Assembly (NCBI GenBank): GCA_945952065.1
Contig: CAMFGY010000001.1
Coordinates: forward strand, 186,001 to 250,000
Direction: 5' to 3'
Source: an uncultured Burkholderiales bacterium
GTDB taxonomy: Bacteria > Pseudomonadota > Gammaproteobacteria > Burkholderiales > Burkholderiaceae_C
DNA: 64,000 nt
Shown here piece by piece: positions 7,379 to 24,393 of this stretch; the first letter of the stretch is position 1, and every line of letters begins with the position of its first letter. The translations under genes and the position numbers were made by a program. The notes beneath the pieces are model-generated. The model was not told the origin of the DNA. It saw nothing but the letters and a program-made list of their open reading frames with translations, and searched no databases.

Positions 7379-7442
7379 AACAAAAGCGCACAGGGGTTGC
7401 CGGTAGACTGGCTGCCAATACTGATCTGCAGGAGCTTCCCCC

Positions 7443-8192
7443 ATGTCATCCAAGAAACTCACAGCCGCAGCCCCAGCTGCGGCCATTTTGCTAAGCGCCA
7501 TCTTGCTCGGCACCAGCGCCCAGGCCCAACAGGCGCGCGGCGTCAACCCGGCGGAAATCGACAGCCGCTTTGATTTGATCGTCAAGCAGGTCAATCTAGA
7601 GCCCGGCGGCCATGTGCGCAGCGCCACCCTCAAGTACGACTACAAGCTCAACGATCGCTGGGGCCTGAACTTTGAGCTGCCGGTGTACAGCCGGCTCTCG
7701 CAGCCCGGATTTGAAAGCAGCGGCAATGGCGATTTGTTTGCGCGTGCGCGTTGGATCGTGCCGGCTGGGGCCTGGACCTATGGGGCCTCCATGGAGACGG
7801 TGTTGCCGGTGGCAAGCAAAGACCCCTTGGGAACCGGCCGCTACCAGCTCAATGTCGGGGCCCTGGTGGTGCGCGCTTTTTCAGCCAGTTTTTTGGCCGC
7901 TGCCGTGCTGAAGCAAAGCACCTCGGTGGGCGGTGACAGCAGCCGCGAGCAGTTCAGCAATACCGATTTTCGAGTGGTGCCGGTCTTCATCCTGCCGGAG
8001 GGCTGGGCCATCACTGGCGAGCTTCGCCAGACCTGGGAACACCGCGGCAGCCAAGCCCGCTGGCAACGCGCCGAAGTCAGCTTGAACAAACAGTTTGATC
8101 TGCATTGGGCGGCCTCGCTCTCGGCGGGCCGCGACTTCGGCGACCGCCAAGACCGCGGCGCCTACTCGGCGGCGGTGAAGTACTTCTTCTGA
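7443..8192 (+). CDS. Outer-membrane beta-barrel protein of unknown function
   Basis: A 249-aa protein with a signal peptide (MSSKKLTAAAPAAAILLSAILLGTSAQAQ). The mature chain shows alternating strands (SATLKYDYKLNDRWGLNFELPVYSRL, GDLFARARWIVPAG, TYGASMETVLPVA) and ends in aromatic V-K-Y-F-F, the terminal Phe recognised by the BAM complex. The size suggests 8-12 strands. CAGGAG is 8 nt before the ATG. It is resembled by the 'transporter/porin-like' barrels of Burkholderiales, but the cargo is unknown. Confidence 0.78.
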   Translation: MSSKKLTAAAPAAAILLSAILLGTSAQAQQARGVNPAEIDSRFDLIVKQVNLEPGGHVRSATLKYDYKLNDRWGLNFELPVYSRLSQPGFESSGNGDLFARARWIVPAGAWTYGASMETVLPVASKDPLGTGRYQLNVGALVVRAFSASFLAAAVLKQSTSVGGDSSREQFSNTDFRVVPVFILPEGWAITGELRQTWEHRGSQARWQRAEVSLNKQFDLHWAASLSAGRDFGDRQDRGAYSAAVKYFF

Positions 8193-8227: not shown

Positions 8228-9307
8228 TCAGGCCGCGGCGCCGCGCAAGGCCCGGCCCGCCTGTGCAAGCGCCTCAGCCAGGGTTTGCAAATGCTTGGGC
8301 TCTGGCGCGGGCCAATCCAAGCCCGGCGCATGAAGCTGGGCCAGGGCCATGGGGCTCAGCAGCGCTTCGCGGCGGAACTCCAGCTGCAAAGCGCCGATTT
8401 GGGGCTGCCCCCTGGGCCGCAACAAAGCGCCAAAGTGTTGGGTCTCATAAGCGCCTTTGTAGGGCTTGTTGAGCAGAATCGCGCGCTGGCCTTGCGCCTC
8501 GCTCAGGCCCAAGGCCCGAGCCCAGGCCGTGGCGATGCGGCGCAGTTCGGCGCCCGGCAAGCTCAATGGTTCACCCGCCTCATTGCCTGCTTCGTCCCCG
8601 CGATTGCCCAGATTCATCCAGTCCGGCAAACGGTCTTCCAGCGGGCGTTCCACCACGATGGCGCCATCGGCGCGCATCTGGGTGTTCATGGTGTCGTGCA
8701 GGCTGATCACACGCAGCGGCGCTGCGGCCGGGCGCTTGTCCAGCAGCATGGCCAAGACCTCTTCACAGCAAGCCCGGTACACCGCCACAGTGCGCTCGGC
8801 CGCATCTTGCAGCAGCTCGCCCAGGGCCTGCCACTGCGCTTCTGAGCGAGGCTCCAGCAAGACCTGTTCGCCGCTGAAGCTGATGGGGCGAATTGCATCC
8901 ACACCGGCAAAACTCTGCGCCACGCCGGCGCGCTGCAGCTCCAAGCGCCGGAAGAACTCGTGCAAGCCGCCCAAGGCATCGGCGGGCGGCGCACGGTTGG
9001 CATCCTGCACCAGCCGCGAGACGGGGTTTTCGATATAGACCACCCCAGCGTCGGCGGCTGCCCAGGCTCGGCCCAGATCCGCAGTCAGGCAGTCAGAAAA
9101 ATCACATTGCTTGCGACGGGTCCAGCCCGGCGCAATGAATGGGCGCAACTCGGCGGGCAATGCCGCGCTGGCATGCGGGCCCAGCACCAAGGTGTCCACC
9201 GTGGCAGCGCATTCGCTCAAGCTTTGGCGCCCACGGCCTTGCCAAAACACCAAGTCCTCGGCGCCAAAGCGGCGCCCGGCCTCGATCCAGAGCAATGCCT
9301 CACTCAT
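8228..9307 (-). CDS. N-formylglutamate amidohydrolase-family protein
   Basis: A 359-aa protein of the FGase superfamily (zinc-dependent deformylase/amidohydrolase). Recognisable segments are LHDTMNTQ (about residue 203), NKPYKGAYETQHFG (about 281) and the conserved A-L-Q-L-E-F-R-R-E near residue 308, where His/Glu residues form the metal and catalytic site in the family. Family members release formate from N-formyl-glutamate in histidine breakdown, but many act on other substrates. GAGG is 5 nt before the ATG, and the gene begins 7 nt after the Dcu transporter stop, implying joint expression. Confidence 0.85.
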   Translation of the reverse strand: MSEALLWIEAGRRFGAEDLVFWQGRGRQSLSECAATVDTLVLGPHASAALPAELRPFIAPGWTRRKQCDFSDCLTADLGRAWAAADAGVVYIENPVSRLVQDANRAPPADALGGLHEFFRRLELQRAGVAQSFAGVDAIRPISFSGEQVLLEPRSEAQWQALGELLQDAAERTVAVYRACCEEVLAMLLDKRPAAAPLRVISLHDTMNTQMRADGAIVVERPLEDRLPDWMNLGNRGDEAGNEAGEPLSLPGAELRRIATAWARALGLSEAQGQRAILLNKPYKGAYETQHFGALLRPRGQPQIGALQLEFRREALLSPMALAQLHAPGLDWPAPEPKHLQTLAEALAQAGRALRGAAA

Positions 9308-9314
9308 GATGACC

Positions 9315-10640
9315 TCACTTCAGGGCCGCCAGCGCCAGCCCCACCGCGACGGACACCACGGTGTAGATCAGCACGGGCAATAGGAAAGAATGATTGATCA
9401 CCGCTGCGCCGATGCGGGTGCTGCCGGTGCGATCCAACTCCACCGTGGCGATCTGCGCGCCATTGGTTGGCAGCAAGAACACCCCCACCACGGCGGGCCA
9501 CATGGCGGCCAGCGTGGCCGGCGACAGGCCCAGGGCAATGCCGATGGGGATGATGGAAAAAGTGGCACTGGATTGACTGGTGGTGATGGCCGCCACGGCA
9601 AACAGCGCCACGGCAATCATGAGGGGCGTTTGCTTGGCCAGCTCGCCCAGGCCACCGACGATCACCGTCTCATTCGCGGCAATGAAGGTATTGGCCATCC
9701 AGGCCACGCCGAACAAGGCCACCACAGCCACCATGCCTGAATCGAACAGCGGGCTCTTGACGATCTCGCCGGCCTTGATGCGGCACAGCGCGGTGATAGC
9801 CGCCGCCACAGTGAACATGGAGATCTGGATCAGCTGCGAGAGGTCGACCTCCATCATCTGGCCCTTGGCCTTCACCAAGGGGCGCAGTTCTTCAAAAATG
9901 CCCGCGCAGACGATGAAGGCCACACCGGCCAAAAAGATCAGCGCCGAACGCTTGCCTTCGGGCGTCACCGCCTTGGCCTCGAGCTCGCTATTGGGCGGCG
10001 CCAACTCGCCTGCCGCCAAACGGGCCTGAAACTCGGGGTCGTCTTCCAGCTCCTTGCCGCGGCGGTTCATGATGAAGGCGCCCACGATGATGGCCAGGAT
10101 GGAGGCCGGTACGGTGATGGCCAAGATGTCCGTGATCTTGAAGCCCAGCGGCGCCATCAGGCCCACCATGGCGGCCGTGGCGGCAGACACTGGGCTGGAG
10201 GTGATGGCCAGCTGCCCGGCTGTGGCCGCCAGGGCCAAGGGTCGCTCGGGCCGCACCTTGTTGGCATAAGACACCTCGTAGATCACCGGCATCAGCGAGT
10301 AGTAGATATTGCCGGTGCCCGCCCCAACGCAAAAGCCATAGGTGGTCAGCGGCGCCACAAAGGTGATCTGGCGCGGAAAGCGCCGGATCAGCTTTTGCGC
10401 CAAGCTGACCAGATAGTCGATGCCACCGGCCAGCTGCATCGCTCCGGCCGCCGTCACCACGCTCATGATGATGAGCATGGCACTCACGGGCACGCTGCCC
10501 GGCGCGATCTTGAACAAGAGCACAAAGGCCAAAACCCCCACGGCGCCGAACAGGCCAATGGCCATGCCCTTGTAGTGCACCCCCACCGCAATCAAGCCCA
10601 TCACCATCAGGCCTTGGATCAATACCCACATGAGGTCCAT
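9315..10640 (-). CDS. Dcu-family anaerobic C4-dicarboxylate/aspartate transporter
   Basis: A 441-aa membrane protein matching DcuA/DcuB in length and pattern: about ten to twelve hydrophobic segments, with the conserved APLTTYGFCVGAGTGNIYYSLMPVIYE and GQLAITSSPVSAATAAMVGLM stretches. DcuA/B exchange aspartate, malate, fumarate and succinate across the inner membrane. AAGGAG lies 8 nt before the ATG. The partner gene 7 nt downstream is an N-formylglutamate amidohydrolase-type enzyme, so uptake of a dicarboxylic amino acid or derivative is plausible (inference). Confidence 0.92.
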   Translation of the reverse strand: MDLMWVLIQGLMVMGLIAVGVHYKGMAIGLFGAVGVLAFVLLFKIAPGSVPVSAMLIIMSVVTAAGAMQLAGGIDYLVSLAQKLIRRFPRQITFVAPLTTYGFCVGAGTGNIYYSLMPVIYEVSYANKVRPERPLALAATAGQLAITSSPVSAATAAMVGLMAPLGFKITDILAITVPASILAIIVGAFIMNRRGKELEDDPEFQARLAAGELAPPNSELEAKAVTPEGKRSALIFLAGVAFIVCAGIFEELRPLVKAKGQMMEVDLSQLIQISMFTVAAAITALCRIKAGEIVKSPLFDSGMVAVVALFGVAWMANTFIAANETVIVGGLGELAKQTPLMIAVALFAVAAITTSQSSATFSIIPIGIALGLSPATLAAMWPAVVGVFLLPTNGAQIATVELDRTGSTRIGAAVINHSFLLPVLIYTVVSVAVGLALAALK

Positions 10641-10686
10641 CGTCGTCGCTCCTTGAATCTTTTAAGGGTTGGCTTGCTTGCAGGAA

Positions 10687-10705
10687 TGAGTGAGTGAGTG
10701 AGTGA
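10687..10705. repeat. TGAG tetranucleotide microsatellite
   Basis: Four complete TGAG units plus TGA lie in the 121-nt gap between the BatD stop and the Dcu start, about 47 nt upstream of the Dcu ATG (as CTCA on that gene's strand). Short, but in a position where length change could alter the leader. Confidence 0.6.
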
Positions 10706-10761
10706 ATCAACGAATGTTTGATGCGTGAAGCGTCGCCGGTTTGCGCATGGCTGGCATCGAC

Positions 10762-12129
10762 TCAGGGATGCAAGGCGGGCAAGTCCGCCTGCGCCAGCTT
10801 GGCGCGCTGGGTCGCCGCCGCATGCAGTCCTTGCAAGGCCTGCCACAAGTCGTCGCCTCGCCAGGGCGCTTGTGAGCCTTGCGACTGGCCAAAGCGCAGG
10901 CGCTGCAACTGCTGCACCGCTTGGCTCAATGCCGCATCCTGATGCCAATGCGCGGCCTCGTCCCGCGGCAGGCCTTGTAGCCATGCTGCCAACAAGGCTT
11001 CGGCGGCTTCGGCCCGGTGCTGCCGACAGGCCCGTCGCAAGCGGCGCCACCGCCGGGCCGGATCGCTCGGCTGCGCGCTGGCGGCGCCAGCATCCCGGCC
11101 CCCCGAGTAGCGCCGCCAAGCCCAGGCCGCCCCACTGGCGGTGGCCAAAACAGCCGCTGGCCAGCCCAGGCTCGGCCACAAAGCGCCGAGGCCAGGGCGC
11201 TCTGGCGCGGCCTCGGCGGGCGCAGCGGCGGGCAGCGCAAAAGGGTCCTGGCTCGGCTGCGCGGGGCGCACCTCCAGCACGCGGCCCTCAAGCCGACTGA
11301 CGCGGCGACGCCGTGCCTGCACATCCCACCACACCAGTTCCACCGCCGGCAGCTCGACGCGACCGGCCTGCTCCAGCGTGTAAACAGCCTCATAGCGCAG
11401 GCTCAGTTGTGCCGTGGCCGCGGCATGCAAGCGCTGCTCCTGGCGCTGCGGCGCCAGCACATGCCAGCGGGTGCCCGGCGCGGGGCCAAACTCCGGCGCT
11501 GGCAAGAGCGGCGAGCTGCTGTCGGTCTCCAACACAATCTCGCGGCGCAGCAACTCCCCCACTTGCAAGCCGGTCTCGCTCTCTGCTTCGGGCCACCAAC
11601 GCTGACGCAAGCTCAGACGCCGGGCCGCGACAAAGGGCTGGATGTCTTGCGCACCGGCAGGCACGCTCACTTGCAGGTTCAGCGCCGCAGGCGGCTGCAA
11701 GCGCATCGGCTTGCCACCGCCCGGGTGCACAAGCAGGGGCTCGCTCAGGCTGACGCGAATCTGCCCCGGCTGCACCGGCAGCAGGCGGTAGCGGCGAATC
11801 AAACCCGTCCAGCGTTGGCCGCCCTGCTCTTCAAAACGCGAATCGGGAGAGCCGCCCACCAACTCGACCAAAGCACCTTCCGCCGCCAAGGTGGACGGAA
11901 ACTCCACCGGCGCCTGGAACCAAGTGCTGACCCAGACCTCCAGGCTCAGCATCAGCACCTCGCCCACCTCCAATCGCTGGGCGGCGCCGTCCAAACGCCA
12001 ACGCAAGCGGGCCGCTGGCGCGGCTTGCGCCCGGGCGGCAGGCAGCAGCAAGGCGCCGGTCAACAAGGCCAGCACGCGGCGGCGGCGACGGCCAGCGCCC
12101 AACGCTTGGCGATCCAGGCTGCGGCTCAT
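10762..12129 (-). CDS. batD: BatD-like protein (oxygen-tolerance family), last gene of the MoxR/Bat set
   Basis: A 455-aa protein with an N-terminal signal (polyArg n-region, VLALLTGALLLPAARAQA), a large beta-rich periplasmic part (about 30-300), a single transmembrane helix (about 318-338, LGWPAAVLATASGAAWAWRR) and a C-terminal cytoplasmic helical tail. This is the BatD layout; BatD proteins act with MoxR ATPases and VWA proteins in a membrane complex of poorly known role. Its start overlaps the preceding VWA/TPR stop by 4 nt (12126-12129). Identity rests on layout and gene order more than on sharp motifs. Confidence 0.8.
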   Translation of the reverse strand: MSRSLDRQALGAGRRRRRVLALLTGALLLPAARAQAAPAARLRWRLDGAAQRLEVGEVLMLSLEVWVSTWFQAPVEFPSTLAAEGALVELVGGSPDSRFEEQGGQRWTGLIRRYRLLPVQPGQIRVSLSEPLLVHPGGGKPMRLQPPAALNLQVSVPAGAQDIQPFVAARRLSLRQRWWPEAESETGLQVGELLRREIVLETDSSSPLLPAPEFGPAPGTRWHVLAPQRQEQRLHAAATAQLSLRYEAVYTLEQAGRVELPAVELVWWDVQARRRRVSRLEGRVLEVRPAQPSQDPFALPAAAPAEAAPERPGLGALWPSLGWPAAVLATASGAAWAWRRYSGGRDAGAASAQPSDPARRWRRLRRACRQHRAEAAEALLAAWLQGLPRDEAAHWHQDAALSQAVQQLQRLRFGQSQGSQAPWRGDDLWQALQGLHAAATQRAKLAQADLPALHP

Positions 12130-13787
12130 GGCCGGCTCTCCTGAGGCCGCGGCGGCGCTTCGCGCGACTGGATCTCAAACTTGCGCCGCAAGAAGCCGGC
12201 CGGGCTGGTGTCCAGACGCTGCAACCAAAGGCTGTTGATTTCCGCCTCGCTGAGCCGACGCGCCGGCCCAGGCTTGCGGGCACTGCGCTTGCCGGGGCTC
12301 TTGCCCTCGCGATCCCCCTCGCCGGCTTGCGGGTCGCCGTCGTCCGCGGCTTGCTCGGGCTCGCGCGGGATCAAGCTGCGCACCCGCTCACGGTCTTGTT
12401 GCGCTTGCCCCCAAGTGGGCAGGCGCAGCAAGGCTTGGTCGTAGGCCGCCACGGCCTCGACATACAGGCCTTGATGCGCCAAGGCCTGGGCTTGGTTGAA
12501 CCAGGCCGCGGCCGAGTCCACCCGCGCGAAATCCTGCGCCGCCTGGGCCCAGTGGCCGGCACGCGCATGGGCCAGGCCGCGCCAGAAGGGGTCGGCAAAA
12601 TGTTGCGCCGCGCGCGCCGGGTCGCCGCGCTCCAGCCACCAGCGGCCCTGTTGGTCGGGGGTCAGCCACCAACTGACGAAGCGCTGCGCAACTGTTGATG
12701 GCGCCCGCCCGGGCTCGGCTTGCGCCCAGGCCGGGCTGGGGCTGGCGCCGCCCAAGATCAGCAGCGCCAGCAGCCACAAGGCCGGCGACGGCAGCACCCA
12801 GCCTCGGCGCAAAGAGAACAGCAAAGCCAGCAAGCCCGGCCCAATGAACCAGGGGCCACTGTCCCGCCAGCGACGCGTCTGGTCTTGCTCCTGCGCCTGG
12901 GCACTTTGGCTGGCAATCAGGGCTTGGATGCGTTGCAAATCCGTCCCGTCGGAGCTGAGGCTGATCAAGGCCGCAGCGCTGCGCTCGCGCAAGGCCTGCA
13001 GCCCAGCCACGTCCAGACGGGCGCTGCGCGAGCGGCCTTGCGCGTCGGTGATGAGTTGCCCCTGCGCGTCACGCAAAAGCCCGCCCTCGGGCGTGCCCAA
13101 GGCCCAAACCAAGAGGCGCTGGCGCGAGCCCTTCAACAACGCCGCGCTGCGGGCCAACTCAGCCGCGGGCCAATCGGCCGTCAGAAACAAGACCGTGCCC
13201 GGCACCGCACTGCGGTCCAGCCACTGCAAGGCCAAGGCCAAAGCCTGCGCGGGTGCTTGGCCCGGCGTGGGCATCAAATCGGTGGACAAGGCGTCCAAAT
13301 AGCCCAGCAATACCTGCCGATCGGCCGTGGGCGGCAGCACCAGATGGGCGCTGCCGGCATAGACCAGCAAACCCGTGGGCGCATCTCCGCGCTGCGCCAG
13401 CAACTGGCGCAGCTTGTCGCGCGCCCGGTCCAGGCGGCGCGGCGGCAGGTCCACGGCGTCCATCGCCGCCGACAAATCCAGCGCCAGCATCAGCGGCGCG
13501 GCTTCCTGAGCAAAGGGCGCGGGTTCACGCTGCCAAGCCGGGCCGGCCCAGGCGATGCAAAAACAAGCCAAGGCCAGCGCCAAGGTGTCGCCGGGTCGCA
13601 GCCCCGTGCGGCGCCCGCCACCCAAGAGCAGATGGGGCAGCAGATGCTCGGCGATCACGCCACGCGGCACGGCACGGGCCGAATCGCGCCGGCCCCACAG
13701 CGGCAACAACAAGATGGGCAAGAGCGCCCACAAAGCCTGGGGCCGCAGCCAGTGCAGGGGCAGCAGGGTCCAGACGCCCTCAGCCAT
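12126..13787 (-). CDS. batB: BatB-like VWA protein fused to a BatC-like TPR region
   Basis: A 553-aa protein starting at ATG 13787 (MAEGVWTLLPLHW); the longer frame back to 13928 lies inside batA and is not used. Two N-terminal hydrophobic segments are followed by a VWA domain (about 85-290), a further membrane segment (about 320-370) and a C-terminal tetratricopeptide-like region (about 400-490, AWFNQAQALAHQGLYVEAVAAYDQALLRLP). The MIDAS motif reads D-L-S-A-A-M where D-x-S-x-S is usual, so metal binding may be weakened. The start overlaps the batA stop by 8 nt. Fusion of BatB and BatC functions is common in Proteobacteria. Confidence 0.87.
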   Translation of the reverse strand: MAEGVWTLLPLHWLRPQALWALLPILLLPLWGRRDSARAVPRGVIAEHLLPHLLLGGGRRTGLRPGDTLALALACFCIAWAGPAWQREPAPFAQEAAPLMLALDLSAAMDAVDLPPRRLDRARDKLRQLLAQRGDAPTGLLVYAGSAHLVLPPTADRQVLLGYLDALSTDLMPTPGQAPAQALALALQWLDRSAVPGTVLFLTADWPAAELARSAALLKGSRQRLLVWALGTPEGGLLRDAQGQLITDAQGRSRSARLDVAGLQALRERSAAALISLSSDGTDLQRIQALIASQSAQAQEQDQTRRWRDSGPWFIGPGLLALLFSLRRGWVLPSPALWLLALLILGGASPSPAWAQAEPGRAPSTVAQRFVSWWLTPDQQGRWWLERGDPARAAQHFADPFWRGLAHARAGHWAQAAQDFARVDSAAAWFNQAQALAHQGLYVEAVAAYDQALLRLPTWGQAQQDRERVRSLIPREPEQAADDGDPQAGEGDREGKSPGKRSARKPGPARRLSEAEINSLWLQRLDTSPAGFLRRKFEIQSREAPPRPQESRP

Positions 13788-14835
13788 GGGCCAACTCCCG
13801 GCGTTCACGCCACGCGGCCCAGGCGCTGGCGAGCATGCGCTGCAACACATGCACGCCCAGCAGCAGCAAGGCCGCACCCAGCGGCCAGTGGAACAAGGGG
13901 CGGCGCGGTCGCGCCGACAGGGTTTCATGATCGCGCGGCGTCAAGGCATCCAGCTCGGCATAAATGGCGCGCAGGCCTTCACGGTCGCTGGCTTGATAGG
14001 CCTTGCCGCCGGTGGCCTCGGCCCAGGCGCGCAAGCCGGCCAGATCGGCCTCTTCCCCCGCTTTGGCAGCGGCGCTGCCGATCGCCACGGTGTACAGACG
14101 CACGCCCCGTTGAGCCGCAATCTCGGCGGCTTTGGCCGGCGGCACACGGCTGCCGGTGTCGCGTCCGTCGGTCATCAGCACCAGGGTGCGCTGGCGCGCT
14201 TCGGATTCCTCAAACACCCGCAGCGCCAGGCCGATGGCGTCACCAATCATGGTGCGCGTGCCGGCCATGCCGATGCGCGACTCCGCCAGCAAAGCGCGCA
14301 CCGCCTCATGGTCCAGCGTGAAGGGCACTTGCACATAGGCCTGCTGCCCGAAGACCAGCAGGCCGATGCGGTCGGCACTGCGGCGCTGCAGAAAGTCTTC
14401 GCTCAACTCGCGCAGCACGCTCAAGCGGTCTTGCGGTCGGCCTTGGGCGTCGCGGAAGTCGCGGGTCTGCATGGAGGGCGACAAGTCCACGGCCAAGAGC
14501 CAGTCGCGGGTCGGCTTGATGCGGGTGATGGGCGGCTCCACCCATTGCGGCTGCATCAAGGCCAGCACCGCCGCCAACCAAGCCATGCCCAGCAAGCACC
14601 AGCCCAGCACGCCATGCGGCAGCACCACAGCACCGCTGCGCGGCTTTTGTCCGCTGCCCTGCACCGCCAACTCGAAGAAGGGCACACGCAAAGCCGTGCG
14701 GCGGCTGCGGTATGGCGGCAGCAGCGGCATCAACAGCCCCAGGGGCGCCAACACTGCGGCCCAGGGCAAGGCCCACTCCAGCTGACTCCACAAGCCCAGC
14801 AACTCGGCCGGGCTGGCCAGCAAGCGCGCGCTCAT
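13780..14835 (-). CDS. batA: BatA-like VWA-domain membrane protein
   Basis: A 351-aa protein with two N-terminal membrane segments (residues about 8-30 and 60-80), a VWA domain (about 90-290) with an intact MIDAS (DLSPSMQTRDF, later T at MIGDAIG and D in MTDGRDTGS), and a C-terminal transmembrane helix (PLGAALLLLGVHVLQRMLA). BatA proteins bind the MoxR/Bat complex at the inner membrane with the VWA domain in the periplasm. Its start overlaps the DUF4381 stop by 4 nt and its end overlaps batB by 8 nt. Confidence 0.92.
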   Translation of the reverse strand: MSARLLASPAELLGLWSQLEWALPWAAVLAPLGLLMPLLPPYRSRRTALRVPFFELAVQGSGQKPRSGAVVLPHGVLGWCLLGMAWLAAVLALMQPQWVEPPITRIKPTRDWLLAVDLSPSMQTRDFRDAQGRPQDRLSVLRELSEDFLQRRSADRIGLLVFGQQAYVQVPFTLDHEAVRALLAESRIGMAGTRTMIGDAIGLALRVFEESEARQRTLVLMTDGRDTGSRVPPAKAAEIAAQRGVRLYTVAIGSAAAKAGEEADLAGLRAWAEATGGKAYQASDREGLRAIYAELDALTPRDHETLSARPRRPLFHWPLGAALLLLGVHVLQRMLASAWAAWRERRELAHG

Positions 14836-15395
14836 CGTGCAGCCTCCGGCAGCTGGTGCTCATGGATCCATCGCTCGATCAAGGCCAGCAGCCCGTCCAG
14901 CTCGGCCCAAGGCAGGGCCGCAGACGGCCGATAGGCCCAATCGGCCAGGTGGCGGCCCGCGCCGTGCTCGAAAGCTGCCTGGCCCTGGGGCAGGCTGCGA
15001 TCCAGCCAGCGCGCCCAGTCTTGGCCTTGCAATGCGGCAACTTGCGCGCGCGGCGCGTGGGCCAGCGCCACGCGTCGCACCAGCGCAGGCAGTTCGCGCG
15101 CTGCCGCCAGACGCTGCTCGGCCGTGGCCGCGTCGGACTGCAAACACTGGCGCAGCTGCCGCAAGCGCTGCGCCGCCAAGCGCCGAAAGCGCCGCGCCTG
15201 CCAGCGCCGCCGGGCGCGCCAAGCCAGCCAGGCACCGAGCAGCAGCAAGAGCAGCGCCAGCACCGCCCAGCCCCAGGTCTGCGGCATCCAGCTCGGCGGC
15301 GCAGGCTGCATCAAGGGATGCAGGTCTTGCAGCACCGAGGACGCCGCTTCGGCAGCGGCAGCCGGCAAGGATTCACGCGGGCTCATCATGGCCAT
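14832..15395 (-). CDS. DUF4381 membrane protein of the Bat operon
   Basis: A protein of about 187 aa. Three in-frame ATGs (15395, 15389, 15386) are possible; the longer frame to 15761 lies wholly within the DUF58 gene and is rejected. One transmembrane helix near residues 33-57 (WGWAVLALLLLLLGAWLAWRA) is followed by a basic, Arg/Gln-rich helical cytoplasmic part with the DUF4381 pattern (LAAQRLRQLRQCL, ALVRRVALAHAPRAQVAALQGQDWARWLD). DUF4381 proteins occur between DUF58 and BatA genes in many Proteobacteria. Only 16 nt separate it from the DUF58 gene. Confidence 0.85.
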   Translation of the reverse strand: MAMMSPRESLPAAAAEAASSVLQDLHPLMQPAPPSWMPQTWGWAVLALLLLLLGAWLAWRARRRWQARRFRRLAAQRLRQLRQCLQSDAATAEQRLAAARELPALVRRVALAHAPRAQVAALQGQDWARWLDRSLPQGQAAFEHGAGRHLADWAYRPSAALPWAELDGLLALIERWIHEHQLPEAAR

Positions 15396-15411
15396 CACCC
15401 AAGGCTGACCC

Positions 15412-16431
15412 TCACAGCCGCGCCGCCGTGGGCGGTGTCTGATCGAGCCCACGCGCCAACTGCAAGAGCGCCGGCTCGGTGTTGAGCAGGGGCAGCACCG
15501 CGCAGCCCAGTTCGCTGCGCAGGCCACGCAGGCGCTCGCTGCGCTCATGCGCCAGCCGGGCCAGGCCCTCGATGACTTTGCGGTCGCCATGGTCGATGGG
15601 CAGCTGGGCCCGGCCATCGCTGACCACCAGGCGCGCCCCCGGTGTGGTGCTGCGGGGGTCTTCCCAAATCGGCAGCAAGACCAGATCGTTGTGCCGGGCC
15701 AGTTCCAGCAGCAATGAGCGACTGCCCTCGCCCAGGCCGTCGAAATCCGAAAACACCGCAATCACCGCCTGGCGCGGCGCATGCCGCAGCAAGCGCTGCA
15801 AGGCGGCGTCCAACTGCGCAGGAGCGGGCGGCACCGCAGACTCGGCGCGCAAAGCATGGTTGCGGCGGCGCAGCTGTTCGAGAAATTGCAGCAAAGAACG
15901 CCGGCCGCGACCAGGCAGGGTTTCATCCAAGCCCTCATCCGAGATCACCAGGCCGCCCACGCGATCGCCGCCGGACAAAGCACGCCAGCCCCAAACCGCG
16001 GCCGCTTCGGCAGCCACCACCGAGCGCAGCGATCCGCTGCGGGCAAAAAACATCGAGAGGCGCTGGTCCGCCACCAGCCAAGTGGGGCGGTCGCGCTCTT
16101 CGGCGTAGACGCGCACATGGGTATGGCCGGTGCGGGCACTGGCGCGCCAGTCGATGCTGCGGGTGTCGTCACCCGGCAGGTAATGCCGCAGCTCGATGAA
16201 ATCCAAGCCGCGCCCGCGCACCCGGGAGCGATGGCGACCGGCCAGCAAGCTGCGCGCCGAGGCCTGTTGCGGGGGCCAGCGCACCCGTCGCGCCGCGAAC
16301 TCCAGGCCCAGCAAGGCCTGCCAATCCACGTAAACGCCGGCCGCCCCACCCTGCGCATCGGCCGCCTCGGCCGCAGCAGCGCGGCGCCAAGGCCATCGCC
16401 TGCGCAGGCCAGCCAAGGCGCCCTCGCTCAT
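15412..16431 (-). CDS. DUF58 protein (MoxR-associated VWA-like)
   Basis: A 339-aa protein with the DUF58 hallmark at about residues 85-115: Y-L-P-G-D-D-T-R-S-I-D-W followed by R-A-S-A-R and V-Y-A-E-E-R-D. The C-terminal half is a degenerate VWA-like fold (VIAVFSDFDGLGEGSRSLLLELARHNDLVLLPIWED). DUF58 proteins are the standard partner encoded directly after moxR. The ATG at 16431 overlaps the moxR stop by 4 nt (ATGA). No signal peptide, so it acts at the cytoplasmic face. Confidence 0.92.
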   Translation of the reverse strand: MSEGALAGLRRRWPWRRAAAAEAADAQGGAAGVYVDWQALLGLEFAARRVRWPPQQASARSLLAGRHRSRVRGRGLDFIELRHYLPGDDTRSIDWRASARTGHTHVRVYAEERDRPTWLVADQRLSMFFARSGSLRSVVAAEAAAVWGWRALSGGDRVGGLVISDEGLDETLPGRGRRSLLQFLEQLRRRNHALRAESAVPPAPAQLDAALQRLLRHAPRQAVIAVFSDFDGLGEGSRSLLLELARHNDLVLLPIWEDPRSTTPGARLVVSDGRAQLPIDHGDRKVIEGLARLAHERSERLRGLRSELGCAVLPLLNTEPALLQLARGLDQTPPTAARL

Positions 16432-17468
16432 GGGGCGGCAACGGCGGCCAGCAGTCGGTCCACCACCTGATCGGCCTGCACGCCGGCGGCCAGCGCCTCG
16501 TGGCTGAGCAAGAGGCGGTGACGCAAGCAGGCATGGGCCACCGCGCGAACATTGTCCGGGCCGACAAAGTCACGGCCTTGCAACCAAGCATGGGCGCGGG
16601 CACAACGGTCCAGGGCGATGGTGCCGCGCGGGCTGGCGCCCACCTCGATCCAGCGCCCCAGGTCTTCACCCACGCGAGCGGGCTCGCGGCTGGCTTGCAC
16701 CAGGTCGACGATGTAGTGCTCCACCGCTGCCGCCACATGCAGGCCATGCACAGCGCGGCGGGCGTCCAGCAGATGCACCAGGGCCGAGCCTTCGGCGGCG
16801 GACTCAACAGCCGCGGCAGTGGGCGCTGGCGTGCTCGCTGCATTGGCAGCGCTGGCTGCGCTCGCAGCCGCCAGCTTGGCCCCCTCTTCGGCGCGCACCA
16901 ATCGCATGATGTCGCCTTCGGCCTCGCGGCCGGCGTAGCCGATCACCACCTTCATCAAAAAGCGGTCGTTCTGGGCTTCGGGCAGGGGGTAGGTGCCCTC
17001 CTGCTCGATGGGGTTTTGCGTCGCCATCACCAAAAAGGGCTGCGGCAGGCGATGGGTTTGCCCAGCCACGGTGACTTGGCGCTCTTCCATGGCTTCCAAC
17101 AAGGCCGATTGCACCTTGGCCGGGGCGCGGTTGATCTCATCTGCCAGCACCAAGGGGGCGAACACCGGCCCGGGCTGGAACACAAAGCGCGCGCCTTCGG
17201 GCCCGCCTTGGTGATAAATCTCGGCGCCCACCAAGTCGGAGGGCAGCAAGTCCGGCGTGAACTGAATGCGGGCCAAGGGCGCGCGCAATTCGCGCCCCAA
17301 GGCCTTGATGGCACGGGTCTTGGCCAGACCCGGCAGGCCTTCAAGCAGCACATGGCCGTCGGCCAGCAAAGCCATCAACAAGGCTTCGACGACCGCCGGC
17401 TGGCCAATGACGGCCTCGCCCAGCCGCTCACGCAGCTGGGCAAAGGCCTGAAACGCCTGTTGACTCAA
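16428..17468 (-). CDS. MoxR-family AAA+ ATPase
   Basis: A 346-aa AAA+ protein. Walker A reads E-G-L-P-G-L-A-K-T (about residue 40), Walker B L-V-L-A-D-E-I-N-R-A-P-A-K (about 110), and sensor and arginine-finger regions follow (MATQNPIEQEGTYPLPEAQNDRF). MoxR ATPases are chaperone-like and help assemble or activate partner enzymes with VWA proteins. The start is a TTG at 17468 with GAGG 6 nt upstream; its TTGA overlaps the sulfatase stop, so translation is coupled to the sulfatase. An Ala/Thr-rich insert (about 190-215) interrupts the usual C-terminal helical domain. Confidence 0.93.
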   Translation of the reverse strand: MSQQAFQAFAQLRERLGEAVIGQPAVVEALLMALLADGHVLLEGLPGLAKTRAIKALGRELRAPLARIQFTPDLLPSDLVGAEIYHQGGPEGARFVFQPGPVFAPLVLADEINRAPAKVQSALLEAMEERQVTVAGQTHRLPQPFLVMATQNPIEQEGTYPLPEAQNDRFLMKVVIGYAGREAEGDIMRLVRAEEGAKLAAASAASAANAASTPAPTAAAVESAAEGSALVHLLDARRAVHGLHVAAAVEHYIVDLVQASREPARVGEDLGRWIEVGASPRGTIALDRCARAHAWLQGRDFVGPDNVRAVAHACLRHRLLLSHEALAAGVQADQVVDRLLAAVAAP

Positions 17469-19018
17469 TCCAGGCCTCGCGTGTCACCCATGCGCAGGGA
17501 GCCGCTCTTCTGACGCGGCTTGCATTCCTGGAAGGTGGCCATGTGCGCGCCCACCGTGTCCTGGATCATGCCGCCCAGGGCCACGCCCATCTTCATCGCC
17601 AAGTCATTGCTCTTTTGGCCGCCGTGACGCTCGAAGGGGTCCATGCGCAGATTGAAGACCAAGGAGCTGGGCTTGTGATAGTCGAAGAAGCCCTCGCGGG
17701 TTTGGAAGTGCGACTTCCAAGGGCCCACGCGCACCGCGGTCATATTGTTCTCGTCGTAATAGATCAGCGAGTTACGGGCCGAAGGCGCTTCGCTGGTCCA
17801 GTGGGCAAGGTTGTCGATGCCGTCAATGCAGACCTTGTCACGCGACTTGAGCTTGCCGCGCACATCGCCATAGCCGGCGGCAGCGGCCAGGGTGGTGAAC
17901 ATGTCTTCGTGGGTCTGGATGCCGTTGGAAACCTTGCCCTTGGGGATCTTGGCCGGCCAACGCACCAGCATGGGCACGCGCACGCCGCCTTCCCAGGTGC
18001 TGGCCTTCTCGCCGCGGAAGGGCGTGGTGCCGGCATCGGGCCACCAAGACACCATGGCGCCGTTGTCGGTGGTGTAGACCACGATGGTGTTGTCGGCAAT
18101 CTTCAAATCATCCAGATGCTTGAGCAGCTGGCCCACGTGGCCGTCATGCTCCATCAAGCCGTTGCCATAGGTGTCAAACTCGCTGGAGATGTCGCTGGCC
18201 AGATTGCGCGAGGCCGGCTTCAGGTGGGTGTAGATGTGCATGCGGCTGGGGTTGAACCAAGCCAGGAAGGGTTGCTTGGCCTGGGTCGCATTGCTGATGA
18301 ACTTCTTGGTGCGGTCGAGGAATTCCTCGTCCACGGTCTCCATGCGCTGGGTGGTCAGCGGGCCGGTGTCCTTGACCTTTTGCTTGCCGATCTTGCCAAA
18401 GCGCGGGTCCACGGTGGCGTCGTCTTCTTGCGTGGCCACGGAGTCAATCACGCCGCGCGGACGGTAGCGCTGGTTGAAGCCAGCGTCTTTGTTCCACATG
18501 CGCAGCTCGGGCTCCTCTTCGGAGTTGAGGTGGTAGAGGTTGCCGTAGAACTCATCAAAGCCATTGACGGTGGGCAGGTGGCTGTTGCGGTCGCCCAAGT
18601 GGTTTTTGCCGAACTGGCCGGTGCGGTAGCCCAACTCCTTGAGCACCTTGCCCAGGGTGGGGTCGCGCTGGTCAATGCCCACGGGCGAGCCCGGCAGGCC
18701 CACCGTGGTCATGCCGGTGCGGATGGGCAACTGCCCGGTGATGAAGGCGGCACGCCCGGCGGTGGAACTGGGGTGGGCGTAGTGGTCGGTGAACAAAATG
18801 CCCTCGCGACCGATGCGGTCGATATTGGGCGTGGGCACCATCATGCCGTTGCTGTAGGCGCCCACATTCCAATAGCCAACGTCGTCGGCCATGATGACCA
18901 GGATATTGGGGCGCTGGGCGTTTTGCTGCGCCAGTGCGGGTGCGATGGCGCCCGCGCTGCTGGCGGCGACGGCGGCCGCGATCGCGGCACGGCGCCATTG
19001 AGGACGGTTCTGGATCAT
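17465..19018 (-). CDS. Periplasmic Ser-type arylsulfatase
   Basis: A 517-aa sulfatase of the alkaline-phosphatase superfamily. A signal peptide with basic start (NRPQWRR) ends at about residue 31. The metal site starts at NILVIMADDVG (D45, D46). The formylglycine motif is S85-T-A-G-R89 followed by AAFITG, so Ser rather than Cys is the residue converted. GYRTGQFGKNHLG (Lys) and VVYTTDNGA (Asp-Asn) complete the active site. Ser-type enzymes need a radical-SAM maturase, and that gene ends 50 nt upstream. AGGAG is 9 nt before the ATG. The 3' end overlaps moxR. Substrate unknown. Confidence 0.93.
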   Translation of the reverse strand: MIQNRPQWRRAAIAAAVAASSAGAIAPALAQQNAQRPNILVIMADDVGYWNVGAYSNGMMVPTPNIDRIGREGILFTDHYAHPSSTAGRAAFITGQLPIRTGMTTVGLPGSPVGIDQRDPTLGKVLKELGYRTGQFGKNHLGDRNSHLPTVNGFDEFYGNLYHLNSEEEPELRMWNKDAGFNQRYRPRGVIDSVATQEDDATVDPRFGKIGKQKVKDTGPLTTQRMETVDEEFLDRTKKFISNATQAKQPFLAWFNPSRMHIYTHLKPASRNLASDISSEFDTYGNGLMEHDGHVGQLLKHLDDLKIADNTIVVYTTDNGAMVSWWPDAGTTPFRGEKASTWEGGVRVPMLVRWPAKIPKGKVSNGIQTHEDMFTTLAAAAGYGDVRGKLKSRDKVCIDGIDNLAHWTSEAPSARNSLIYYDENNMTAVRVGPWKSHFQTREGFFDYHKPSSLVFNLRMDPFERHGGQKSNDLAMKMGVALGGMIQDTVGAHMATFQECKPRQKSGSLRMGDTRGLD

Positions 19019-19068
19019 GGGTCTAGCTCCTCTGTCGGTGGGTGGTGCAAAAAGTCGGTGTTAGGCCT

Positions 19069-20343
19069 TCAGCGGCCCAAACGTTGGCGAATCTTGGGCA
19101 TGTCCTGCTGGACCTGGGCATAAAAGCGCTTCAGCCCTTCGCACAGATAGTTCAAGCCCGCCGCGCCATCCGGGGTGGCGATCAAACGGTTCTTGGGGCA
19201 TTCGCCCCAGCACAAGGCGAGCTGGGGACAGGTCTTGCAGTAATCGGGCAAGCTGTCGCGCTTGGCCAGGCCAAAGGCGATCTGCTTTTTGGAGAAAGCC
19301 AGATCCCCCTCGTGGGTGTCGCGGATATTGCCCAGCTTGTACTCGGGGTAAACAAAATGGTCACAGCTGTACAGGCTGCCGTCATGCTCCAGGGCCATGG
19401 CCTTGCCGCAGATCGGCGAGCTGGTGCACATCTGGGCCGGCAGGCCCAAGCACTGGGCCACAGCGCTTTCAAACACATTGATGTGCACCCGGCCAAAACC
19501 ATCCGCCAGCCACTCGCGCCAGACGGTGCACAAGAACTCCCCATAATCTCGCGCATCCACGGACCACTCGGTGACCAAAGACAGCGGGTGATCGGGCCGC
19601 GTGCGCGGGCTGCCCAAGCGAGGCGCAGTGGCGTCCTGCAGCGCGGGGCCTTGCTCCTTGAAGCCGCGTGGCTCCACGCAAGGGGTGAACTGGATGCGGT
19701 ATGTGCCGGACACGCTGCTCAAAAAACGCCACACTTCCAGGGGCTGGCGCGCCACATCCCGGTTGACCACACACAGCAGCGCGAACGACACCTCATGCTC
19801 GGCCAGCAAACGGGCGGCCTGCATGACCTTGTCAAAGGTGGGCGTGCCGCCCTTGGTGGGGCGGTATTTGTCATGCAGCGCTTGCGGGCCGTCCAGGCTC
19901 AGGCCCACATGGAAACCATGTTGTTTGAGGAAACGCGCCCAATCTTCATCCAATAGCGTGCCATTGGTCTGCAGATCGTTTTCGATGCGCTGACCGGGTT
20001 TGCGCCAGCGCGCCTGCAAGGCCACGATCTTTTCAAAAAAACCCAGCCCCATGACCGTGGGCTCGCCGCCCTGCCAGGAGAACACCACCTCGTCCCCGGT
20101 CTGCGCCTCGATGTACTGGCGGATGTGCTGCTCCAACAGTTCCGCCGCCATGCGCGCATTGCTCTCATGACCCAGCAGCTCGGTCTTGTGCAGATAAAAG
20201 CAGTAAGGGCAGTCCAGATTGCACAGCGCACCGGCCGGCTTGATCATGGTGTGGAAGCGGTACTGCCGGCCCGCCGGCAGCGGCGGCAGTTGGCACTGCG
20301 GCCCAGCGGTCTTCGAGCTGTCCATAGAAATCGACTCAGCCAC
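19069..20343 (-). CDS. Anaerobic sulfatase-maturating enzyme (radical SAM, SPASM)
   Basis: A 424-aa radical SAM protein. The [4Fe-4S]/SAM motif is C41-x-x-x-C45-x-x-C48 (CNLDCPYC). The C-terminal SPASM-type cysteines bind two further clusters (CTSSPICGKAMALEHDGS, YSCDHFVYPE, CKTCPQLALCWGECPKNR). The sequence runs like AtsB/anSME proteins, which oxidise the active-site Ser or Cys of a sulfatase to C-alpha-formylglycine in the cytoplasm. The start is GTG 20343, overlapping the preceding gene by 8 nt; ATG 20325 is an alternative. The substrate is very probably the sulfatase encoded next. Confidence 0.94.
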   Translation of the reverse strand: MAESISMDSSKTAGPQCQLPPLPAGRQYRFHTMIKPAGALCNLDCPYCFYLHKTELLGHESNARMAAELLEQHIRQYIEAQTGDEVVFSWQGGEPTVMGLGFFEKIVALQARWRKPGQRIENDLQTNGTLLDEDWARFLKQHGFHVGLSLDGPQALHDKYRPTKGGTPTFDKVMQAARLLAEHEVSFALLCVVNRDVARQPLEVWRFLSSVSGTYRIQFTPCVEPRGFKEQGPALQDATAPRLGSPRTRPDHPLSLVTEWSVDARDYGEFLCTVWREWLADGFGRVHINVFESAVAQCLGLPAQMCTSSPICGKAMALEHDGSLYSCDHFVYPEYKLGNIRDTHEGDLAFSKKQIAFGLAKRDSLPDYCKTCPQLALCWGECPKNRLIATPDGAAGLNYLCEGLKRFYAQVQQDMPKIRQRLGR

Positions 20344-20833
20344 GCGCCCACACCTGTACTGTTGCGCGCTCCTTGGCGCCCAAGGGCGTCTTGTACCAGA
20401 AGATGATGCTCTCGATGAAGCGGCGCTCGCCGGGCAAATCGATGACGCGCGTCGCGCCGCCGCGCTCGATCAATTGGCGCACCTCGATCTCGCGGTTCTC
20501 GCCGTTGCGAAAGCGAACACGTACCGTGAGCATCTCAACCGGGGCATGAAAGACCCTCAGCCGAATGGCGCTGTAGGCACGATCGGCGCGCACCCGGATT
20601 TCGTCTCGATCCAAGCTGCGACTGGCTTGCTTCTCGCCCAGTTTGCGCCAACCACGCCCCGGTTTGCCGCCGACGCGAAAGCCATCGTCATCATCCGGTC
20701 GGGCCTGCGCGCCCCAGGGCCATGCGCCCAGCATCAGGCCGGCAGCCATGCCACTCAGGCCCAGAGCCAGGCGTCGCCGAGCCCCTTGCACTTGCGGCTG
20801 GTCGGCCTCCAACGCATTGTCGTTTTGCTTCAT
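20336..20833 (-). CDS. Small exported protein, DUF2541-like pattern
   Basis: A 165-aa protein. An N-terminal region with Arg-Arg-Arg and a hydrophobic stretch (RRRLALGLSGMAAGLMLGAWPWGAQA) suggests export, perhaps by the Tat route. The mature part carries a beta-sandwich-like pattern (SAIRLRVFHAPVEMLTVRVRF, IERGGATRVIDLPGERRFI) seen in small exported DUF2541-type proteins; that assignment is tentative. It overlaps the maturase gene by 8 nt and so belongs to the sulfatase transcript. Role unknown. Confidence 0.68.
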   Translation of the reverse strand: MKQNDNALEADQPQVQGARRRLALGLSGMAAGLMLGAWPWGAQARPDDDDGFRVGGKPGRGWRKLGEKQASRSLDRDEIRVRADRAYSAIRLRVFHAPVEMLTVRVRFRNGENREIEVRQLIERGGATRVIDLPGERRFIESIIFWYKTPLGAKERATVQVWARG

Positions 20834-20959
20834 CGCGTGCGTCCCCTTGTTTCAAGATGGATTGCGCCCCAGCGCTTGCTTCAAGCGCTCTCGGCCTGGC
20901 CCGCCCTGCTCACATCGGCAGCGCCTGTTGGCGCGGCGCGATGCGGACTGTTGCTGAAC

Positions 20960-22399
20960 TTAAAAGTTAGCCGTCAAACCCACGCCGATGGTGGTCCAGG
21001 CCTGCGTGCCTTGCGGAGCGGTGGCCTTCAAGCCTGCGCCCGGTGAGTTGCGGGCCACAAAGGCAATGGCCACCAACTGCGGATTGAAGACGCGCGCATA
21101 TTGCAAATACAGCTCATCCGACAGCTTGGCCTCCGGCACCCCCACCAGCAAGCCGTTTTGCGTGAAACGAACACCCTGGCCGAACTGGACCGCGCTGTTG
21201 AGCTGGTCCACCTTGGCGCTGACGTGCTGGAACTGCAAGATGTCTTGCGGGGACAAATAAGCGTCGATGATGAAGCGCTGGGCACGCAGATTGGCGTTCA
21301 GCCAGGAATAAGCGCCGTTCGCGCCAAACCACCAGTTCTCCAGGCCATTGCCCCAGAACATCGGGTCAAAGCGCTCATAGGTTGAGGTGCCCGGCTTATC
21401 GCCCGAAAACTGCGCAATGTGGTAGCTGAACTTGGGCGCAAAAGGCAAGGACTGACCCCACCAACTGGCGCCGAGCAGCCAGGCATTGGCTTTCATCGGG
21501 TCGCGCTTGCCATCCGCACGGGTGATGGTGTTGCGCTGCTGGGCAAACTCGGCGCGCACACCAAAGGTCGGCAGGCCCGGCACAAAGCCGGTGATGTCCG
21601 CCCAGCCATGCCAGGTGGACAAGCCTTCGCGGCCTTTTTCAATGAAGACCAAGGGCGCTAAGTCACCGGGATAAATCGCATCCGACTTCGGCACATGGAA
21701 CCAAGAGATTCCGGCCTTGCCCATCTTGGGCTTGTCCCATTGCAGGGCCAAGCCTTCGACGCGGGTGTGGGTGCGAGCCTCGGGCACTTCATCGGGCTCC
21801 AGCGCAAACGCACTGGCCTTGAACTCGCCCATGGAAGCGCTGGCGATGGCGCTGCGCGCCCAAGTCTTGCGCTGTGTGGAAGCGCCGCCGCCCCAGCTGT
21901 AACCATTCGATGAACCCGCGGCGAGCAACATGCCGCTGCCCAACACAAAAGGCTGACGACCGAGCGACAGGTCGTAACTCACCTCACCCGACTTGCCCCG
22001 CAGCCCCACAAAGCTCGCGTCCATGCGAACCGTGCCTTGGTTGTGATAGTCAAAGGCATCGCCACCGAGGTTTTTGCTGGCGCCCACCGACAAGGTGCCA
22101 TAGGCCTGCCAATCTGCGCCCAGTTTGAAAACCCCATTGAGCTTGGGGCGCACCCACAGTTCGGCGAAGCTGCGATCGGTTTCAAAACGAGGGGCCGAAC
22201 TGGCTGCCAAATTCCACCAAGTGCCACGCATCGAGTAGTAAGCACTGTAGGTGTCGAGCCCGGCATCCAAGCTGAGATCTCCCGACTGCATCGCCCACAG
22301 CGGCTTGGCGGCCTGTTGGGCCTGAGCGGTTCCTAGCGCAAAGATCGCCGCGGCGGCGAGCAAGCAACGCTTCATCGAGCGGTATTGATGATGGCCCAT
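20960..22399 (-). CDS. Outer-membrane porin, alginate-export (AlgE)-like
   Basis: A 479-aa outer-membrane barrel. The ATG at 22399 has AAGGAAG 5 nt upstream; ATG 22375 is a second option. Signal peptide ends at about residue 28 (GTAQAQ). The mature chain shows many amphipathic strands (AELWVRPKLNGVFKLGADWQAYGTLSVG, VSYDLSLGRQPFVLG) and a C-terminal T-A-N-F with terminal Phe. The 'FETDRSFAELWVRPKLNG' and 'R-Q-P-F' segments are like alginate-export-type porins, which let polysaccharides or anionic compounds cross. First gene of the minus-strand sulfatase block, so uptake of a sulfated substrate is the best guess. Confidence 0.82.
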   Translation of the reverse strand: MGHHQYRSMKRCLLAAAAIFALGTAQAQQAAKPLWAMQSGDLSLDAGLDTYSAYYSMRGTWWNLAASSAPRFETDRSFAELWVRPKLNGVFKLGADWQAYGTLSVGASKNLGGDAFDYHNQGTVRMDASFVGLRGKSGEVSYDLSLGRQPFVLGSGMLLAAGSSNGYSWGGGASTQRKTWARSAIASASMGEFKASAFALEPDEVPEARTHTRVEGLALQWDKPKMGKAGISWFHVPKSDAIYPGDLAPLVFIEKGREGLSTWHGWADITGFVPGLPTFGVRAEFAQQRNTITRADGKRDPMKANAWLLGASWWGQSLPFAPKFSYHIAQFSGDKPGTSTYERFDPMFWGNGLENWWFGANGAYSWLNANLRAQRFIIDAYLSPQDILQFQHVSAKVDQLNSAVQFGQGVRFTQNGLLVGVPEAKLSDELYLQYARVFNPQLVAIAFVARNSPGAGLKATAPQGTQAWTTIGVGLTANF

Positions 22400-22656
22400 G
22401 GCAACTTCCTTCTCATATTGTCCTGCCGCCTGCAGTGCGTCCTTCCCTGAGCGCTACTGCAGATGAGCGGTGCATATCGCCTGAGTCACCACTCGCTTTG
22501 CTTGCCACTTTACACCGCTTTGAGCGGGCCAAAACCCAAACGGAACAGGCGGCCCCCTTCATCAATTTGACATCTCACGCGCGCGCCGCGTTCCGGCGCG
22601 GCGCCCTTGCGCTGACCGCTCACTTCAGCGGCAAGGCCAGCCAGCGCTTTGGCGCA

Positions 22657-24123: not shown

Positions 24124-24393
24124 GATGGCTCCAGGAATGGGCAGCAAGACGCGGCGCGCTGAGCAGGCAGCGGGCCGCAAGCGGCGGAATCATAGCGGCG
24201 CCCCTGGCCGCCTTGCAGGCGAGGAAACCCGCCGCCGCGGGCCGCGCGGGTCCACGCCCAGCCGCAGCTCGCGGGGGCGCCGCTCATCCCCAGCCAGCGC
24301 CGCTGGGCACCTTTTTTACCGCGCGCAAGCGACCGCGCCGAGACTGCGGGCATCCGGCCTTGCAACAGGCCCGCCCCACTCGAAAGGATGCCC

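Follow-up and report, generated by a model that had tools for sequence, protein, structure and literature searches.

Two described systems that pair a MoxR-type ATPase with VWA-domain partners come closest to the locus reported here. MoxR-MoxC/L is described as inserting calcium into methanol dehydrogenase (PMC12657314), and NorQD as driving metal insertion (PMC13036017). A third relative is the Bat operon of Bacteroides and Leptospira, in which bat genes lie alongside moxR and whose function is termed elusive for Leptospira biflexa in PMC3557215. We analyzed 64,000 nucleotides from an uncultured Burkholderiales bacterium (assembly GCA_945952065.1, contig CAMFGY010000001.1, positions 186,001 to 250,000), a stretch called the window below, in which a sulfatase, its maturase and a MoxR/Bat gene set lie in one minus-strand series (10762..22399). 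Comparison across genomes shows that one group of this machine has a recurrent association with sulfatases in more than one phylum and stands apart from the canonical proteobacterial Bat machine, and the MoxR-DUF58-DUF4381-BatA-BatB-BatD cassette of the window probably represents a dedicated accessory machine for an exported sulfatase.

The MoxR/Bat gene set of the window comprises six genes (all coordinates refer to the window and to its minus strand unless stated otherwise). The MoxR protein (16428..17468) has the AAA_3 domain with Walker motifs and the lid of MoxR AAA+ ATPases (PF07726, 205 bits; PF17863 AAA_lid_2, 70 bits), and the motifs LPGLAKT and LADE are invariant among five sulfatase-linked MoxR proteins. 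It is followed by a DUF58 protein (15412..16431; PF01882, 104.5 bits), a DUF4381 protein with one hydrophobic segment (14832..15395; PF14316, 112 bits; start taken as the ATG located 16 nt past the DUF58 stop) and two VWA proteins, one BatA-like with three hydrophobic segments and the metal ion-dependent adhesion site (MIDAS) DLSPS (13780..14835; PF00092, PF13519), the other BatB-like with TPR repeats and a degenerate MIDAS, DLSAA (12126..13787; PF13519, TPR families). The last gene encodes a BatD-like protein with a signal-peptide-like start (10762..12129) that was assigned by its position and by PF25607 (DUF7939), its sole match at E ≤ 0.001; PF13584, which we take to be the BatD domain family, gave no match in this protein, which is 18-26% identical to its counterparts at eight related loci. 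Signal peptides here and below were judged by eye rather than with a predictor.

Directly upstream of MoxR lies a Ser-type arylsulfatase-like enzyme (17465..19018; PF00884, 191 bits; PF14707) with a signal-peptide-like start. Alignment with the solved sulfatases 7aj0 and 4fdi gives it the motif S85-T-A-G-R and the metal-site residues D45, D46, D318 and N319, as expected of a formylglycine (S1) sulfatase, whose active site has the motif [CS]-x-[PA]-x-R together with metal ligands of this kind. The preceding gene encodes an anaerobic sulfatase maturase (anSME) of the radical SAM/SPASM type (19069..20343; TIGR03942, 457 bits with a cut-off of 349; PF04055, PF13186). The window genome (G000, 5.27 Mb) has a single PF00884 match at E ≤ 1e-10, and because the pairing also recurs widely, the adjacency of sulfatase and MoxR is beyond chance.

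Comparison with the described systems places the machine within a known kind. The mxa cluster (MoxR/MxaR with MxaC/MxaL) likewise combines MoxR and VWA proteins with a Ca2+-dependent exported client encoded in the same cluster, and MxaS is presumably its DUF58-type protein; in the window the putative client is instead a sulfatase, and DUF4381, a TPR-bearing BatB and BatD are added. No match to a pyrroloquinoline quinone dehydrogenase (methanol dehydrogenase) was found among the 12 genes scanned (8228-22399). Sulfatase systems of the anSME/Ser type and the FGE/Cys type share with the window a sulfatase beside its maturase; they are not known to require more than the maturase, whereas the window adds the MoxR/Bat cassette. 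The canonical proteobacterial MoxR-DUF58-DUF4381-BatA-BatB-BatD machine has the same gene set and order but falls on the other side of the tree presented below and was never sulfatase-linked in our samples. NorQ/NorD also joins a MoxR-type ATPase to a VWA partner in maturing a metalloenzyme, by inserting iron into nitric oxide reductase (PMC13036017, PMC9976466), but as described there it consists of two proteins against six genes in the window, and its client differs. A literature search at the level of titles and abstract beginnings found no publication on a MoxR/Bat-sulfatase pairing. The MoxR-VWA maturation machine is of a known kind, and the sulfatase-dedicated group appears to be new.

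In a tree of concatenated MoxR, DUF58 and BatA from 119 loci (one of 120 rows, L081, was dropped; loci carry L numbers and genomes G numbers here), every locus whose MoxR has a sulfatase no more than 10 kb away, 37 in all, fell inside one group of 46 (SH-aLRT 99); L105 and L162 are identical rows from the same genome, so the 37 linked rows represent at most 36 independent loci. No sulfatase was found within 10 kb in any of the 73 rows outside the group (69 canonical and four from a non-proteobacterial outgroup). The linkage label required eight changes on this tree, compared with a mean of about 32 after shuffling, and none of 500 shuffles gave so low a number. After near-copies were removed, the group was again split off in a 72-row tree (UFBoot 100, SH-aLRT 99), with the window on the non-canonical side. 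Linkage of any MoxR/Bat machine to sulfatases was considered and rejected, given the 73 unlinked rows and the absence from the group of all 56 further DUF4381 loci drawn from genomes without the sulfatase subfamily.

The same separation is seen within single genomes and on plasmids. Of 17 genomes in which both machines were placed, 15 have the sulfatase next to the group copy and none has it next to the canonical one; in G629 and G695 it adjoins neither. The window genome has a second strong MoxR (C14), considered as part of a spare Bat machine and rejected as such; it belongs to a MoxR-DUF58-like pair with no VWA protein among the open reading frames of the 3.4 kb covered. Twelve plasmid loci, hand-picked for spread and annotation from 131 matching records and thus not random, were divided in the same way (split 100/99): three are canonical and have no sulfatase, nine belong to the group, and eight of these nine have one. 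Two of the plasmid loci of the group are on plasmids typed as conjugative. Sinorhizobium meliloti (pSymA, L253) and Rhizobium leguminosarum (L254) are among the hosts of a linked locus. One locus, L260 on plasmid pPP2 of Persicobacter psychrovividus, carries sulfatase, MoxR and Bat genes on a plasmid of the Bacteroidota within a mainly proteobacterial group, an apparent case of cross-phylum transfer.

A draw of 398 genomes across the phylum, selecting by DUF4381 independently of sulfatases, gave DUF4381 in 152, of which 33 carried the sulfatase subfamily (E ≤ 1e-60). The sulfatase lay within 10 kb of DUF4381 in 26 of these 33, with two such loci in each of two genomes. The group machine was held by 29 of the 33, compared with one of the 76 placed DUF4381 genomes without the subfamily (G626; Fisher 5e-21, uncorrected for kinship). 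These 76, with one locus per genome, are 20 placed earlier and 56 of 60 further loci, four having been dropped for want of a MoxR match; the remaining 43 of the 119 phylum-draw genomes lacking the subfamily contributed no locus, and second DUF4381 copies, such as that of G626, were left out. The draw sought only the subfamily near L038, so that a different kind of sulfatase beside a canonical machine may have escaped it. Contig ends cut some loci, so an unlinked call may be a miss (for example L071 and L196).

Within the order, the same subfamily threshold was applied to 399 genomes and any PF00884 match at E ≤ 1e-10 was also sought. The subfamily occurred in 27 genomes and DUF4381 in 31; a PF00884 match was present in 14 of these 31 and lay beside the machine in five, namely the window genome and four that belong to a different family, in which they represent three genera. 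In these four the sulfatase is Cys-type and the maturase is FGE (PF03781 in the three scanned) rather than anSME; all four have a SpeE-like protein and three a HAD-type hydrolase. Eleven further genomes from the same family as the window had neither the subfamily nor DUF4381. A scan of one genome per species, made with a MoxR alignment from five linked loci and so biased toward the group, returned 80 loci. Nine had a sulfatase near MoxR (Ruegeria, Camelimonas, Cupriavidus pauculus, Pseudoruegeria, Vibrio pectenicida, two other Vibrio, Pantoea and Colwellia); 36 of the 80 entered the tree (L071-L106), and the remaining 44, checked by tblastn only, gave no sulfatase match and one weak FGE-like match (L146). 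The sequence-only reading from which this work started would have given up the pairing had relatives not kept the adjacency; it is conserved in Alpha-, Beta- and Gammaproteobacteria and on the one Bacteroidota plasmid, and the 37 linked loci reject a one-off of the window.

The enzymes beside the machine differ among loci. On a sulfatase tree of 89 rows (42 linked and 47 unlinked), linkage changed 15 times, at least 12 of these changes being forced by well-supported branches, compared with a shuffled mean of 29.7; linkage is therefore clustered, yet it has been gained or lost many times. This scatter rejects simple co-descent, with the linked sulfatases as one clade, and the window sulfatase groups with the unlinked L040 and L041 (from G357 and G039). 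The linked sulfatase is Cys-type in 32 of the 37 linked loci, and the maturase is FGE in eight and anSME in 11, with neither found in 18 (counts of maturases, HAD-type and SpeE-like genes are tblastn matches above 100 bits inside the fetched stretch). A restriction of linkage to anSME or Ser-type sulfatases is rejected, as Cys-type and FGE loci are also linked. A sulfatase lies upstream on the same strand in 25 of the 37; otherwise the nearest one is downstream on the same strand in five, divergent in six and convergent in one. As read from these neighborhoods, the sulfatase partner and the maturase are exchanged while the machine stays. Because the machine is kept with both maturases, it would most simply act after them, on the exported enzyme.

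In a hydropathy scan, anSME and DUF58 lacked a transmembrane segment and the one segment flagged in MoxR (residues 18-36) adjoins the ATPase domain, so we take all three to be cytosolic. The three hydrophobic segments of BatA enclose a basic first loop (6 K/R per 29 residues), and by the positive-inside rule for the orientation of membrane proteins its VWA domain would lie outside; the scan found no hydrophobic segment in BatD. The BatA MIDAS (DxSxS) is kept in all 45 group BatA proteins retrieved. Most linked sulfatases have signal-peptide-like starts, with a twin-arginine (Tat)-like RR in three (L170, L171, L172). A Tat pattern scan scored two of 42 sulfatase rows; six Vibrio-type rows (KRRLA) and the sulfatase of the window itself (WRRAA) likewise contain an RR pair. 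An N-terminal hydrophobic anchor occurs in six of ten FGE proteins examined (L036-L039, L076, L262) and is absent from L074, L170, L171 and L254; where present, it suggests that formylglycine may be formed outside the cytosol.

We propose that a cytosolic MoxR ring would act by way of DUF58 and of three membrane proteins, DUF4381, BatA and BatB, driving remodeling by periplasm-facing VWA, TPR and BatD domains, and that these domains would convert the exported sulfatase into an active enzyme loaded with metal. Sulfatases carry Ca2+ next to formylglycine. The likeliest step would be the loading or checking of Ca2+ at the D45/D46/D318/N319 site, with the formation of formylglycine left to the variable maturase (anSME in the window, FGE elsewhere). 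Ca2+ loading is our first guess because of two parallels, methanol dehydrogenase with its MoxR-MoxC/L and nitric oxide reductase with its NorQ/NorD; as the step actually performed it is put forward tentatively, the chances leaning somewhat against it. A functional link between the machine group and sulfatases is very probable, and we think it reasonably likely that the machine matures the sulfatase itself. Slightly short of an even chance is the fuller proposal that in many bacteria this horizontally mobile, sulfatase-dedicated MoxR/Bat branch may give formylglycine sulfatases a second maturation system, one driven by ATP, next to their formylglycine maturase, and that it loads Ca2+ into the exported enzyme or completes its folding.

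Several observations weigh against this proposal. Of 27 sulfatase-bearing genomes in the order sample, 21 have no DUF4381 match above the cut-off and six have one; the machine therefore accompanies the sulfatase far more than the sulfatase accompanies the machine. Among the 21 is G039, listed as 100% complete, which has a Ser-type sulfatase 76% identical to that of the window with an adjacent anSME and no DUF4381 above the cut-off. At nine of the 46 group loci the 10 kb around the machine hold no sulfatase; a strong PF00884 match is present elsewhere in eight of these nine genomes (subfamily unchecked in part) and G626 has a weak one only. Two of the loci, L184 and L187, retain the multiheme cytochrome that separates sulfatase from MoxR at related loci. 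Cupriavidus metallidurans CH34 keeps machine, FGE, HAD-type and SpeE-like genes together with the sulfatase (79% identical to that of L036) about 1 Mb away, and for G467, G566, G486 and G701, which have a subfamily sulfatase, every locus placed is of the canonical machine. The BatB MIDAS, degenerate in the window, is kept in 24 of 45 BatB proteins retrieved, some of which read short through gene splitting or frame choice. Other neighbors recur as well: half of the group loci, 23 of 46, have a HAD-type hydrolase. The sequence-only reading had suggested that the MoxR/VWA machine may serve the sulfatase, by inserting metal, folding or export; that it serves the sulfatase is strongly supported by conserved linkage, the separate group, the same-genome pairs and the exchange of partners and maturases, and the 21 genomes without a DUF4381 match above the cut-off speak against a strict need.

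Recurrent neighbors could also mean that machine and sulfatase share a pathway without being chaperone and client, both acting on a sulfated polymer of the envelope or environment in sensing, binding or transport. The clusters do hold porin-like or outer-membrane transport proteins, HAD hydrolases, MscS channels, multiheme cytochromes and SpeE-like membrane proteins, and VWA and TPR domains are able to bind other partners. Against this, the sulfatase is the commonest of the partners searched in the 46 group loci (37, compared with 23 for HAD, 19 for either maturase, that is 11 anSME and eight FGE, and nine for SpeE-like), and a MoxR ring with VWA partners would suit enzyme maturation better than binding; we regard a shared pathway as unlikely. 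HAD, SpeE-like, FGE and anSME genes were all absent from the 73 rows outside the group. That both could simply hitchhike on a mobile island or plasmid is suggested by the plasmid-borne loci, the two conjugative plasmids of the group and the locus in another phylum, but the two elements stay together across sulfatase lineages, two maturase types and altered gene orders, and no canonical copy placed from these genomes has a linked sulfatase, which makes hitchhiking very improbable.

Two further explanations keep the sulfatase as the substrate and move the step. The machine might aid formylglycine formation by making the Cys or Ser residue accessible to the maturase or by holding the protein unfolded for it, and maturase and machine genes are indeed often contiguous: plasmids of Rahnella victoriana and Pantoea agglomerans carry arylsulfatase, anSME and MoxR, with annotated anSME/MoxR overlaps of 4 nt and 1 nt, respectively. 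A role solely in this step is disfavored because anSME-type and FGE-type loci both have the machine, one machine group thus occurring with two unrelated maturases. Moreover, the FGE anchor is found in six of the ten proteins and not in four, anSME lacks a transmembrane segment while the VWA, TPR and BatD domains are predicted outside, and 18 of 37 linked loci have no nearby maturase match, though one may sit elsewhere in the genome. Help with formylglycine formation is accordingly a poor candidate. Equally improbable is a role in exporting, releasing or surface-placing the sulfatase; several machine parts look membrane-bound or exported, but most linked sulfatases already start with a signal-peptide-like sequence, three of them with the Tat-like RR, so that export seems provided for. 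Maturation of the exported sulfatase remains the reading we prefer.

The sequence-only reading had counted nine genes in a single transcript; all the genes it named are present on the minus strand, and they number ten, in the order porin-like, DUF2541-like, anSME, Ser-type sulfatase, MoxR, DUF58, DUF4381, BatA, BatB-TPR and BatD-like. The porin-like outer-membrane protein (20960..22399, 479 aa) has an export-like start and no Pfam or NCBIfam match, the name being that of the sequence-only reading itself. The small DUF2541-like protein (20336..20833) also has an export-like start, and its PF10807 score of 26.5 bits is below the cut-off of 28.2. A gap of 126 nt separates these two genes, and the DUF2541-like gene overlaps anSME by 8 nt if the GTG start is correct. 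From the maturase onward, where overlaps of 4-8 nt had been claimed for nearly every junction, the claim holds for five of seven, with overlaps of 4 or 8 nt, and the other two are gaps: anSME/sulfatase 50 nt apart, sulfatase/MoxR and MoxR/DUF58 overlapping by 4 nt, DUF58/DUF4381 16 nt apart, and DUF4381/BatA, BatA/BatB and BatB/BatD overlapping by 4, 8 and 4 nt. The claimed overlap of the sulfatase stop with the MoxR start is directly visible as TTGA (17465..17468), in which TTG starts MoxR and TGA ends the sulfatase. No sigma-70-like site was found in 9000-23000 (shuffles 1.4), and 12 terminator-like sites in the same interval match the shuffled expectation of 11.9, with none at 17.4-17.5 kb. 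A single transcript across the locus is plausible.

After a gap of 121 nt, BatD is followed by a DcuA/DcuB-type C4-dicarboxylate transporter (9315..10640; PF03605, 410 bits; 86% identity in L040) and an N-formylglutamate amidohydrolase-like protein (8228..9307; PF05013; 63% identity in L040). Upstream of the locus are a POT-family transporter (22657-24180, minus) and an M13 peptidase (24388-26472, plus). The L040 cluster of G357 holds porin-like, sulfatase, MscS-like channel, DcuA/B and formylglutamate amidohydrolase-like genes, in this order, and no Bat cassette; in the window the cassette lies between sulfatase and DcuA/B. The L040 sulfatase is Ser-type and 87% identical to that of the window by tblastn, its adjoining porin-like relative is 67% identical, and no anSME match was found on the 11.6-kb contig of this genome, which is 83% complete.

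Other neighbors recur around the sulfatase or the machine. A HAD-type hydrolase (PF12710 in L038 and L105, the two scanned) often adjoins the sulfatase subfamily with the machine (L036-L038, L072, L074, L076, L077, L151-L153, L254, L259) or without it (L044, L045, L049, L053, L054). Multiheme c-type cytochromes separate sulfatase from MoxR or adjoin the machine in L155, L163, L168, L104, L159, L184, L187 and L255; those of L184 and L187, the two scanned, contain TPR repeats. MscS-type mechanosensitive channels stand by sulfatase clusters in L040 (4221-6047), L254 and L259. The Cupriavidus loci L251 and L076 have the permuted order BatB-BatD-FGE-HAD-(sulfatase)-SpeE-MoxR-DUF58. In L173 a second enzyme of the alkaline phosphatase superfamily (6107-7792; PF01663) lies between sulfatase and MoxR and is perhaps another client.

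If the proposed role is correct, sulfatases would be a new class of MoxR clients and Bat machines would gain a testable function. One group of the machine would acquire a specific, easily assayed partner enzyme in hosts that are not pathogens, making MoxR/Bat function accessible by a color assay, and the group would serve as a genomic marker that predicts a client. Producing some bacterial sulfatases may then require more than their maturase.

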